A stretch of DNA of 23,356 nt from Nitrospirota bacterium. Lineage in GTDB: Bacteria; JACPQY01. The stretch covers positions 1-23,356 of the forward strand of contig JACPQY010000074.1 of NCBI GenBank assembly GCA_016190245.1, written 5' to 3'. Every line of letters begins with the position of its first letter. Positions within the stretch are counted from its first letter, which is position 1. The position numbers and the translations under genes are program-made. Positions 4,521-14,812 of this stretch are shown one piece after another. Below the pieces are notes generated by a model, which ran no database searches, was not told the origin of the DNA, and saw only the letters and a list, made by a program, of their open reading frames with translations.

Positions 4521-5174
4521 ATGGCTATGCAGGCCGAGGAGGTATTCATTCATCCGACCTCCGTGGTCGAGGATCCGTCCGCGGTCGGCGCGGGTACGCG
4601 GATTTGGTACTTTTGCCACCTTATGCGGGGTGCGCGCGTCGGTCGTGCTTGCAATATCGGGCAGAACGTCTTTGTGGATTCGGGCGCCGTGATTGGGGAT
4701 GGGGTCAAGATTCAGAACAACGTGTCCATCTATGCCGGTGTCGTCTTGGAAGACTATGTGTTCTGCGGTCCGTCGTGCGTGTTTACCAACGTAATCAATC
4801 CTCGCAGCGAAGTCCCCAGACCGGACGAGTTCCGTCGGACGTTGGTGCGGCGTGGGGCCACGATCGGTGCAAATGCCACGGTGGTGGCCGGAACCACGAT
4901 CGGTCGCTACGCCTTCATCGCGGCGGGGGCCGTGGTGGTGAGGGGTGAAGTGCCGGACTATGCTCTCATGATGGGGGCCCCGGCAGTTCGGCGGGGTTGG
5001 ATGAGCCGTCACGGACACCGGCTGGTCGCGCGCAATGCCGAGGGCGACTACATCTGTTCCCAATCCAAGTGGCGGTACCGGCTGCAGGATGGCGATCGGT
5101 TGCGCTGTCTGGATTGGTCGGAAGACGAGGCGTTACCCCGTCCGACCGGGGCCCCGGACGGTCCGCGATGGTGA
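4521..5174 (+). CDS. Left-handed beta-helix N-acetyltransferase (WbpD/FdtC-like)
   Basis: 217 aa. I chose ATG 4521, with GAGGTGG (4504-4510) upstream; ATG 4527 is also possible, and the frame open back to 4461 adds an unrelated Arg-rich stretch. Hexapeptide repeats run from FIHPTSVVEDPSAVGAGTRIW (residue 9 on) to about residue 145, giving a trimeric left-handed beta-helix. The FTNVINPR block (88-95) and YALMMGAPAV (148-155) are typical of WbpD/FdtC-type enzymes that acetylate the amino group of a nucleotide-activated amino sugar with acetyl-CoA. The last 50 residues are a family-like tail. The gene overlaps the oxidoreductase by 7 nt (ATGGTGA), pointing to a shared pathway such as UDP-2,3-diacetamido uronic acid synthesis. 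The exact substrate is uncertain. Confidence 0.88.
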   Translation: MAMQAEEVFIHPTSVVEDPSAVGAGTRIWYFCHLMRGARVGRACNIGQNVFVDSGAVIGDGVKIQNNVSIYAGVVLEDYVFCGPSCVFTNVINPRSEVPRPDEFRRTLVRRGATIGANATVVAGTTIGRYAFIAAGAVVVRGEVPDYALMMGAPAVRRGWMSRHGHRLVARNAEGDYICSQSKWRYRLQDGDRLRCLDWSEDEALPRPTGAPDGPRW

Positions 5175-6190
5175 CGCTGAGCCAGTTGGGCTGCGGCTAC
5201 TGGGGGCCGAATCTCCTGCGCAATTTCTCCTTGCTCCCGGACTGTCACGTGAAATGGGTGGCGGAGGAGAGCGCTGTTCGCCGCGCCTATGTGCAGATGC
5301 ATTACCCCCGATCCGGTGTCACGGTTGATTGGCGGGAGGCCATCGGCGATTCGGATGTGGACGCAGTCGTGATCGCGACGCCTGCGTCCACTCACTATGA
5401 CCTCGTCCGCGAAGCGCTCCAAGCGGGGCGACACGTGCTGGTGGAGAAGCCCCTGGCCATGAGCGTACGCGAGGCCGACGAGTTGGTCGCACTTGCCGAA
5501 CGACAAGAGAAGATTCTGATGGTCGGGCATACGTTTCTCTACAATGCCGCCGTCCGGCATGTGCGCCGGCTGATTGAGGAAGGCGCCTTGGGCGACCTCT
5601 ACTATTTCTACAGCCAGCGCCTGAACCTCGGGCAGGTGCGTCAGGACGTGAATGTCTGGTGGAACCTCGCTCCGCACGACGTGAGTATTCTCGTCTACTG
5701 GATGGGCGGCCTCGCGCCGCGGGAGATCCGGGCGCACGGGGTGGCGCACCTCCAGCCCGCCGTGGAGGACGTCGTCTTCGCAGCCCTTTCGTGGGGGGGG
5801 GGCATCTCCGGCCACGTCCACGTCAGCTGGCTGGACCCGGGGCGGGTGAGGCGGATGACCGTGGTCGGGAGTCGCAAGATGGTGGTGTATGACGATGTGG
5901 GGGAACACAAGATCACCGTTCTGGACAAGGGTGTGGATCGAGTACCACGGCTGGGTGAACGGATGGACTACGACCATATCAGCGCCTACACGCTCATGCC
6001 CCGTGCCGGCGACATTCTTGTGCCCCGGCTCCAGTTCGAGGAACCGGTTCGCGTGGAGGCGCAGCATTTCCTGGATTGCATCCGTACGGGGGAGCGCCCC
6101 TTGACGGACGGGCGCCACGGCCGCGACATCGTGGCGGTTCTGGAGGCCGGAAGTCGGGCACTCCGGGACGGGGCCACCGTCAGTCTCTAG
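5168..6190 (+). CDS. Gfo/Idh/MocA-family NAD(P)-dependent sugar oxidoreductase (WbpB-like)
   Basis: 340 aa from ATG 5168 (MVTLSQLGCGYWG), which places the nucleotide-binding strand directly at the N-terminus; the longer frame to 4997 lies in the acetyltransferase gene. Motifs are GCGYWG (8-13), VVIATPASTHYD, the EKP triad in VLVEKPLAMS (93-95) and WNLAPHDVSI with the His-Asp pair (170-171) expected in the active site. It would oxidise a nucleotide sugar, most plausibly at C3 of a UDP-N-acetyl uronic acid as WbpB does, providing the keto sugar for an aminotransferase that precedes the WbpD-like step. That aminotransferase (WbpE) is absent here. A G10 run at 5793-5802 encodes part of SWGGGIS. 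The TAG stop forms part of the CTAG at the edge of the downstream palindromic element. Confidence 0.88.
   Translation: MVTLSQLGCGYWGPNLLRNFSLLPDCHVKWVAEESAVRRAYVQMHYPRSGVTVDWREAIGDSDVDAVVIATPASTHYDLVREALQAGRHVLVEKPLAMSVREADELVALAERQEKILMVGHTFLYNAAVRHVRRLIEEGALGDLYYFYSQRLNLGQVRQDVNVWWNLAPHDVSILVYWMGGLAPREIRAHGVAHLQPAVEDVVFAALSWGGGISGHVHVSWLDPGRVRRMTVVGSRKMVVYDDVGEHKITVLDKGVDRVPRLGERMDYDHISAYTLMPRAGDILVPRLQFEEPVRVEAQHFLDCIRTGERPLTDGRHGRDIVAVLEAGSRALRDGATVSL
5793..5802 (+). repeat. G10 homopolymer tract inside the oxidoreductase gene
   Basis: Ten consecutive G, in frame, encoding the Gly run of SWGGGIS near residue 210. A gain or loss of one base would frameshift the last ~130 codons. Confidence 0.8.
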
Positions 6191-6329
6191 TACCATGCTG
6201 ACTAAGTCTTGGAACAGATCGGTGCCTCCAACATGGTACTTTCGGAACGATGTTTGCGGAAGCAAACATCGTTCCGATGGTCCCGCGTCGGTGACAATCT
6301 GCTCCAAGAATTCCTCAACGCGGGACTAG
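6187..6329. mobile_element. 143-bp palindromic MITE-like element bounded by CTAG
   Basis: The whole segment is one long imperfect inverted repeat. The centre is a perfect stem GGAACGATGTTTG (6244-6256) with its complement at 6263-6275, closed by the 6-nt loop CGGAAG. Going outwards, the arms continue to match imperfectly: CTTGGAACAGAT (6208-6219) against the reverse complement of ATCTGCTCCAAG (6297-6308), and CTAGTACC (6187-6194) against GGGACTAG (6322-6329). CTAG occurs at both ends, as expected for a 4-bp target duplication or a palindromic terminus. No transposase is encoded, so movement would need one in trans. It lies exactly between two co-directional genes. Confidence 0.65.
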
Positions 6330-6349: not shown

Positions 6350-7738
6350 ATGGAGAATGCTCCGGACCACGCGCTGGGTCCCGCGCCCGCCCTCGCGCCG
6401 CCCGCTGGGTCCGGCGGCACGATACGGCTCCATCCGAGGCCGGACGGTGGGCCGATCTGCCCGTATTGTAGCGTGCCCATGGAATCCCGCGGCTGGTACA
6501 TGCCTGGGATGCGTTGCTTGGCGGAGCTGAAGTGTTCGTCCTGTAGTCGTGACTATTATGGCGACCTCCCCGTCGGACATGGCCTGTACTATCCACTTCT
6601 CCTCGAGCGGGCGACGGGACGCGTGCACAATCCGACCGGCGTAGGATTCTTCGCGAGTTGGCTGCAGGAGTCGTACGCTCACCGCGTGGGAGAGGCCTTT
6701 GCCCTTGCCGTGGAGCAGCGGCGCGACATCCACCGCCCGGTCCTTCTCAACGCTCTCGACCCCGTGTACGGCCACGCGCTGACGAAGCTTATCTGCGCGC
6801 ACCACCATCTGGACCTTGACCCCGGGCTTGACCTGATTGTGCTGGTGCCGCGTTTCCTCAGGTGGCTGGTGCCGGCCAATGCGGCGGCCCTTTGGTCGGT
6901 GGACCTTCCGGCGGACCGCCTCTGGGAGTGGAGCGACGGCACGGCAGCCGAAATTCGGAGGCGGCTGGAGGCGTGGCCCGAAGTCGAGCTTGCCGCTACC
7001 ACGCCCGGCATCCTCGGGCGTCCGATCGATCCGAAACGACTGACGGGTCTCGACCCGTTCCCTCTCGACCAATGGGCACAGCGGCTGCGCGAACGGCCAA
7101 CGGTGACTTTCTGGTGGCGGGAAGATCGGCTCTGGCGGGGTCGGCGGAGGTGGATCCACGCCCTCTGGGACCGATCGCTGAGACGACCTCACCCCTCTCC
7201 CGGTTCCAAGGCATGGCAAACGCGTCGAGTGCGTGCCCTTGCCGAGGCCCTGCGCGTTCGTTTCCCGCGACTCGATTTCGGGGTCGTGGGGTTCGGACAA
7301 CCGAGGGGGCTTCCTGCGTGGGTGGTAGATCTCCGTGCGGAGGGCGCCGGTGAGGCCGCTCAGGCCGCGTGGATCGAGCGAACGGCGCGCAGCCACGTGG
7401 TGGTCGGAGTTCTGGGGTCCCACATGCTGCTTCCTTCCGCTCTGGCGGGTTCGGTGGTGGATCTTGTTCCGCCCGCGTTTCTGGCAAACCAAGGGGATGA
7501 TCTGATCATCCCCCCCCAGCCGGCGCGCCAACTCTTGTTTCGGTACCGGTACCTGACAGCCGACGTTTCCGCGATCACTCTGGCGGAGGTGCTTGCCGCC
7601 CTGCTCGCCAAGATGCCTCTGGCGCTTTGGAATCTCGGCGGGGACACAGCGGGCCTGGAACGAATTCCGCAGGATCCATGGGCCCATTCCAGGGTTCGCG
7701 CCGAGTTGGTTTCAAAGATGCGGGAGTCAACGTCGTGA
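6350..7738 (+). CDS. Unrecognised protein with N-terminal zinc ribbon, possibly a GT-B type glycosyltransferase
   Basis: 462 aa from ATG 6350; the frame upstream to 6209 is part of the palindromic element. Residues 37-65 hold CPYC and CSSC, 21 residues apart, a likely zinc ribbon, preceded by LHPRPDGGP. A block RPVLLNALDPVYGHALTKLICAHHH follows (about 125-150), then IVLVPRFLRWLVP, and RPTVTFWWREDRLW mid-protein. Around residues 345-370 SHVVVGVLGSHMLLPSALAG resembles the loop of GT61- and fucosyltransferase-like enzymes. I do not recognise a named family. The setting between sugar-nucleotide genes and a glycosyltransferase suggests glycan assembly. No signal peptide or membrane helix is seen. 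A C8 run lies at 7510-7517. The function is inferred from context and one weak motif. Confidence 0.75.
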   Translation: MENAPDHALGPAPALAPPAGSGGTIRLHPRPDGGPICPYCSVPMESRGWYMPGMRCLAELKCSSCSRDYYGDLPVGHGLYYPLLLERATGRVHNPTGVGFFASWLQESYAHRVGEAFALAVEQRRDIHRPVLLNALDPVYGHALTKLICAHHHLDLDPGLDLIVLVPRFLRWLVPANAAALWSVDLPADRLWEWSDGTAAEIRRRLEAWPEVELAATTPGILGRPIDPKRLTGLDPFPLDQWAQRLRERPTVTFWWREDRLWRGRRRWIHALWDRSLRRPHPSPGSKAWQTRRVRALAEALRVRFPRLDFGVVGFGQPRGLPAWVVDLRAEGAGEAAQAAWIERTARSHVVVGVLGSHMLLPSALAGSVVDLVPPAFLANQGDDLIIPPQPARQLLFRYRYLTADVSAITLAEVLAALLAKMPLALWNLGGDTAGLERIPQDPWAHSRVRAELVSKMRESTS

Positions 7739-14566: not shown

Positions 14567-14812
14567 CTAGGCTCTGTTTGAAAACGACCTTAAGGGGATC
14601 GACCATGGGCGGGGCGGTTCTTCGTACCTTGGCCCAGGAAGGCCAGGTACCACGCAATGTGGCCCTGCCAGGATGGCAGGGCAAAGACCGTGGTAGGGGC
14701 GGGTCCTTCCGCCACGACGGACAGGTGGACCCGCCCGATGGGAGGGAGGGTGCAAGCACCCTCCCCTACAAGGATTGCGGTGGCCGGCGAAGGGTTTTCA
14801 AACAGAGCCTAG
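14567..14812. mobile_element. 246-bp MITE-like element with perfect 19-bp terminal inverted repeats
   Basis: CTAGGCTCTGTTTGAAAAC (14567-14585) is the exact reverse complement of 14794-14812. The outer CTAG at each end could be a 4-bp target duplication, leaving 15-bp ends GCTCTGTTTGAAAAC. Inside are strong hairpins: GTACCTTGGCC/GGCCAGGTAC (from about 14625), GCCCTGCCA-GGA-TGGCAGGGC (14662-14682), GGGCGGGTCC/GGACCCGCCC, and GGAGGGTGC/GCACCCTCC. No transposase is present, so it would be non-autonomous. The CTAG target and end style suggest mobilisation by an IS5-like transposase, which is an inference. Confidence 0.8.

Follow-up and report, generated by a model that had tools for sequence, protein, structure and literature searches.

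Three-hairpin palindromes bounded by CTAG in two related uncultured bacteria: non-autonomous mobile elements that may move as single-stranded DNA

Insertion sequences of the IS200/IS605 type recognise hairpins at their ends, follow the template of the lagging strand and leave their target unduplicated (PMC6006769, PMC5371812). The hairpins of REPs carry the tetranucleotide GTAG at their foot (PMC8266576). MITEPsy1 duplicates CTAG or YTAA upon insertion (PMC3189936), and IS630 is credited with a preference for the TA in CTAG (cited in PMC2170065). We compared with these systems a CTAG-bounded palindrome from the genome of a Nitrospirota bacterium (GCA_016190245.1), located in a window of 23,356 nucleotides (contig JACPQY010000074.1, positions 1–23,356). 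The locus and the parts of the element are as follows.

4997–6190, + strand: Gfo/Idh/MocA oxidoreductase gene (Pfam), its stop within the left CTAG; the true start may be further in
6187–6329, + strand: the whole element, a family A copy (six full copies in the home genome, plus sister copies)
6191–6329, + strand: extent of the element should the left CTAG be target sequence
6187–6190, + strand: left CTAG, the putative target, containing the oxidoreductase TAG stop (left flank varies in sister copies)
6190–6200, + strand: left arm hairpin, 5' side, with one C-A mismatch in the window copy (covarying helix 1)
6208–6219, + strand: left arm loop segment, complement of 6297–6308 (two-sided changes in 11 of 12 pairs)
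6229–6239, + strand: left arm hairpin, 3' side (covarying helix 1)
6242–6277, + strand: central hairpin with a 16-bp stem and the loop GGAA at 6258–6261 (folding, copy comparison)
6280–6287, + strand: right arm hairpin, 5' side (covarying helix 4)
6297–6308, + strand: right arm loop segment, complement of 6208–6219 (loop-loop complementarity, covariation)
6319–6326, + strand: right arm hairpin, 3' side (covarying helix 4)
6326–6329, + strand: right CTAG, the conserved element end (CTAG in all A, full B and the nine best-preserved G001 copies)
6350–7738, + strand: downstream ORF of 462 aa, no Pfam match

The Pfam match of the oxidoreductase extends to its last residue and the TAG stop occupies 6188–6190, in agreement with an earlier sequence-only reading that had placed this stop within the left CTAG. 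Excision of 6191–6329 leaves the stop 20 nt before the ATG at 6350, which is the gap that reading had calculated. It had also called both neighbours polysaccharide genes; for the 462-aa ORF, which has no Pfam match, the label rests on its neighbours (a hexapeptide transferase, a Wzt-type ABC transporter, methyltransferases and a glycosyltransferase). Judged from sequence, the insertion looks almost neutral for the host, with the stop codon kept and a transcribed hairpin added before the next start.

The palindromic character of the segment is borne out by folding: 6187–6329 reaches −66.8 kcal/mol, against a mean of −37.1 (sd 4.0) for shuffled sequences (z −7.4), and 0 of 200 shuffles fold as well. 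Its anatomy differs from the near-complete single inverted repeat that had been proposed, since end-to-end symmetry covers 70 of the 143 positions, with strong symmetry confined to the outer ∼33 bp, which form an imperfect terminal inverted repeat. The central hairpin, previously given a 13-bp stem and a 6-nt loop, has instead 16 perfect basepairs (6242–6257 with 6262–6277) around the 4-nt loop GGAA; in four other family A copies this loop reads TTCC, the same sequence inverted. The left arm stem is formed by the strands GTACCATGTTG and CAACATGGTAC, and the right arm stem by GTACCGCG and CGCGGTAC in family B and by GTCCCGCG and CGCGGGAC in family A. Three hairpins with complementary arm loops are therefore a better description than a single inverted repeat. 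CTAG is under-represented about 11-fold in the home genome (74 occurrences in 13 stretches of 20 kb, where 850 would be expected), so that two CTAGs 139 bp apart are not a matter of chance.

The home genome (G000; 86 contigs, 3.29 Mb, completeness 85%) contains six full 143-bp copies of this family A, at 94–98% identity, and one decayed copy. All six have CTAG on both sides and are otherwise unrelated in their flanks. A second family, B, is 164 bp long, with end motifs as in A and a different centre, and is represented by seven full copies and one cut by a contig end; one more element end, belonging to either A or B, abuts the edge of contig C86. A covariance model built from A and B revealed 14 more copies, mostly of 164 bp, in G001, a genome of a different genus in the same family and the only other member of the phylum among the genomes searched, for an overall number of about 30 across these two related, uncultured bacteria. 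A search of 290 genomes with stricter filters gave no match beyond these two, so the element seems to be confined to one bacterial family. A direct DNA search of 59 other genomes and a search of viral contigs likewise gave no copy, and the two matches from a GTDB scan with the arm pattern, in Actinokineospora and Thiohalobacter, were set aside as chance.

With very little room for doubt, the segment is a non-autonomous mobile element: it is short, non-coding and multicopy and has terminal inverted repeats, as do MITEs in the broad sense. The precise insertion proposed from the sequence is thus strongly supported by many copies at unrelated sites, six of them bounded by CTAG at both ends. The opposite prospect raised at the time, a palindrome found always here and never elsewhere, is excluded by the six copies in the home genome and the relatives in G001. 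A syntenic empty site was sought in G001, where the best oxidoreductase homologue is 41–43% identical and the following gene is different; this nearest relative does not have the gene pair in synteny, for which reason no orthologous empty site was found. We also observed a 55-bp CTAG-bounded palindrome, CTAGTACCGC...GCGGTACTAG (L076, 1641–1695; G000 contig C31, 58640–58694), that resembles a solitary arm of the element.

An upstream gene could be called for six A copies; all six share its orientation, and three are placed exactly on its stop codon, as is to be expected in a genome poor in CTAG, where TAG stops provide it. This sense-oriented position after a gene, together with the stable fold, is what a conserved, non-mobile regulatory RNA element of the operon (an attenuator or mRNA stabiliser) would show. 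We regard that explanation as very improbable: the copies lie at unrelated loci, the element has no Rfam match above the gathering score, an intrinsic-terminator-like site was looked for on its sense strand and not found, and G-U intermediates are skipped in the changes of its stems, as described below.

Comparison of the copies indicated which helices are conserved. In an alignment of 14 sequences, paired changes were found in the arm stems and none in the outer end-to-end helix; this ruled out that what is conserved is one long hairpin spanning the element from end to end. With 27 sequences, two-sided changes were present in 22 of 39 pairs, a number matched by 0 of 500 shuffles. The loop-loop helix covaries in 11 of its 12 pairs; its sequences vary by lineage, with complementarity kept in many of the better-preserved copies. 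Each end of the element thus carries a structurally kept hairpin, a feature of IS200/IS605-type elements (PATEs included). Across the three stems of the arms and centre we counted 60 two-sided cells against one one-sided (wobble) cell, and this near-lack of G-U steps argues for a structure formed by DNA rather than RNA. Template switching within palindromes could be another source of paired changes, a caution that is strengthened by the inverted central loop (GGAA/TTCC) among copies and by some G001 copies that look like arm recombinants. In three of the latter (L139, L140 and L141, corresponding to copies H_C3, H_C15b and H_C2), the left and right arms appear by eye to differ in lineage, which suggests that arms were exchanged at the central hairpin.

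The two ends of the element behave differently. The right end is CTAG in A, B and the nine best-preserved G001 copies without exception. On the left, every A copy is flanked by CTAG and the B copies by CTAG or the variants CTGG, CAAG, CCAG and CTGA, and the nine G001 copies have NYAG (TTAG, CCAG, ATAG, ATAG, GCAG, CTAG, TCAG, TTAG, CTAG). Over B and those nine copies together, CTAG is present in 16/16 right ends and 6/17 left flanks (Fisher p = 9e-5), with the qualification that the nine are the best-scoring copies, so that their right ends were partly selected as intact, while B was not so picked. Because the right end is fixed and the left flank variable in the sister copies, the right CTAG is likely to be part of the element and not a duplicate, and the left tetranucleotide would probably be the target, here the oxidoreductase stop codon. 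This asymmetry speaks against target duplication: the CTAG duplication implied by the sequence-only reading is probably wrong, and a TA or CTAG duplication was rejected for the G001 family because of its unequal flanks. A fixed right end, a short left target and no target duplication, as in PATEs, fit the sister families, as read from the flanks alone. Family A by itself, with CTAG on both sides, is compatible with duplication or with none. Three A or B left ends adjoin an element of an unrelated family, C, with one CTAG common to both.

Family C provides an internal control. Its ends are GCTCTGTTTGAAAAC, and it has about 18 copies in the home genome, including one at 14567–14812 of the window, a long form with extra internal sequence that includes a GTAGGGGCGGGTCC module. 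On either side its copies are flanked by CTAG or the one-base variants TTAG, CTAA, CTGG and CCAG. By analogy it looks like an ordinary MITE of IS5/IS630 type that duplicates TA or YTAR, comparable to MITEPsy1 (PMC3189936) and to the targeting of CTAG by IS630 (as cited in PMC2170065). CTAG seems to be targeted by more than one element type in the home genome, since the apparent ends of an IS630-type transposase gene (L061, G000 contig C77) are also flanked by CTAG and CTGG.

To follow the orientation of the copies, we split the third-codon-position GC skew within 10–60 kb around each copy into replication and transcription components, with long ORFs of coding-like composition serving as genes. 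In G001 the replication skew on the element strand is positive in all 11 readable copies (p = 0.001; three others are near zero), given a cut-off for 'readable' of about 0.05 that was chosen after the values were seen; by sign alone it is positive in 12 of 14 (p = 0.013). Genes around these copies have no clear direction bias, so transcription is an unlikely cause. If the leading strand is G-rich, as is usual, the element strand in G001 is the lagging-strand template. Positive values were found for 7 of 18 family C copies, i.e. no bias, and in the home genome for 5 of 8 B copies and 3 of 7 A copies, neither of which is significant. Family A is nearly symmetric (its reverse strand scores 107–114 bits with the A+B covariance model), and this near-symmetry suggests that it may enter in either orientation.

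The main rival of single-strand movement is that the element is a classical MITE, mobilised in trans by an IS5- or IS630-type DDE transposase that would insert at CTAG and duplicate CTAG or its TA; in its usual form the sequence-only reading amounts to this. The CTAG on both sides of 6/6 A copies, the lack of strand bias in family A, the behavior of family C as such an element in the same genome and the published CTAG preferences of MITEPsy1 and IS630 all count for it. The sister copies do not conform: their left NYAG stands opposite a fixed right CTAG, with no duplicated target of fixed length, the G001 copies show a strand bias that is absent in family C, and covariation runs within the arms rather than end to end. 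Nor was a DDE gene with matching ends found; IS630 (DDE_3), IS4/IS5 (DDE_Tnp_1) and IS701 (DDE_5) were rejected as partners because their ends mismatch or the gene is absent from the 85%-complete genome. We consider this explanation possible, if rather doubtful.

We lean instead towards a three-hairpin, non-autonomous palindrome inserted 3' of a CTAG target and moved by an HUH/Y1-type transposase in trans; for HUH-type single-strand movement as such we put the chances at even or a shade better. Each arm would fold into a hairpin while the lagging-strand template is single-stranded, would be cut at its AG/CTAG foot, and would be joined to the target tetranucleotide by the enzyme supplied in trans. 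The near-symmetric family A could be used in either orientation, and in the window the insertion point would be directly 3' of the CTAG containing the oxidoreductase stop. Among the points against this model, the ends of the element are imperfect inverted repeats of each other, which typical IS200/IS605 ends are not; the strand bias is not significant in the home genome; and family A, flanked by CTAG left and right and unbiased in strand, would by itself suit a DDE-type MITE.

Candidate enzymes are present, with 8 and 7 Y1-domain matches in the two genomes. Among these 15 loci no arm lies beside a Y1 gene, and no IS200/IS605 relative combining a TnpA gene with the arms of the element was found; those Y1 genes that were examined in detail carry terminal repeats of their own that are unrelated to the element. 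Two pairs of Y1 (HUH) genes, L067/L150 and L068/L148, are 87–90% identical between the genera, carry terminal inverted repeats of the GGGGTCAAG type and fit the published description of TIRYTs. At L152 and L153 (G001 contig C5), Y1-domain matches lie amid many GTAG-tagged hairpins in REPtron-like arrays.

These matches, with the two pairs shared between the genomes, would also suit a REPIN-like element moved by one of the genome's RAYT or TIRYT enzymes, i.e. two inverted hairpins with an AG-ending tetranucleotide at each foot. The NYAG or CTAG directly at the foot of each arm hairpin recalls the GTAG foot of REPs, and a GTAG-tagged central hairpin is present on the minus strand in the B and G001 copies. 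Against this, GTAG occurs only centrally there and is missing from the core of family A, the arms end in CTAG or NYAG and not in GTAG or GGAG, their loops (28–40 nt) are far bigger than those of REPs, just one possible solitary arm was seen, and no RAYT gene flanked by the same repeat was found among the Y1 loci inspected. We judge this origin improbable.

More tentatively still than the HUH reading, the element could represent a new class that moves as folded single-stranded DNA, with end hairpins recognised by structure and joined by complementary loops, a fixed CTAG right end, a short NYAG/CTAG target and mobilisation by a Y1 enzyme whose gene lies elsewhere in the genome. As a compact example, the families show how comparison between copies can help to tell transposition of a miniature element that depends on structure (single-strand) from one that depends on sequence (double-strand); they also show that CTAG on each side of a palindrome need not signify target duplication. 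If the HUH reading is true, the Y1 genes common to both genomes are testable candidates for enzymes acting in trans on foreign hairpins.

Among known systems, MITEPsy1 and other IS5/IS630-type MITEs at CTAG resemble the element in size (∼100–160 bp) and in having CTAG on both sides (PMC3189936); MITEPsy1 duplicates its target, whereas the sister copies of the element combine a fixed right CTAG with an unequal left flank. The repeats associated with TIRYTs are likewise moderately abundant, partly self-complementary inverted repeats tied to Y1 enzymes (PMC3733652), although the Y1 genes inspected here carry ends of the GGGGTCAAG type, unrelated to the element. REPINs and BIMEs moved by RAYT (TnpA-REP) share with it two inverted hairpins, a short foot tag, non-autonomy and single-strand recognition (PMC8266576); the element differs in its CTAG/NYAG tag, its big loops, its near-lack of solitary arms and the absence of an adjoining RAYT gene with these repeats. 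In the PATEs of Haloquadratum, which are related to IS200/IS605, we find the same short, non-coding and dispersed character, near-end palindromes and no target duplication (PMC3119063), while the element has no parent IS that we could find, its ends form an imperfect inverted repeat, its hairpins are strictly terminal, with loops that pair with one another. The element is a variant of these MITE-, PATE- and REPIN-like elements.
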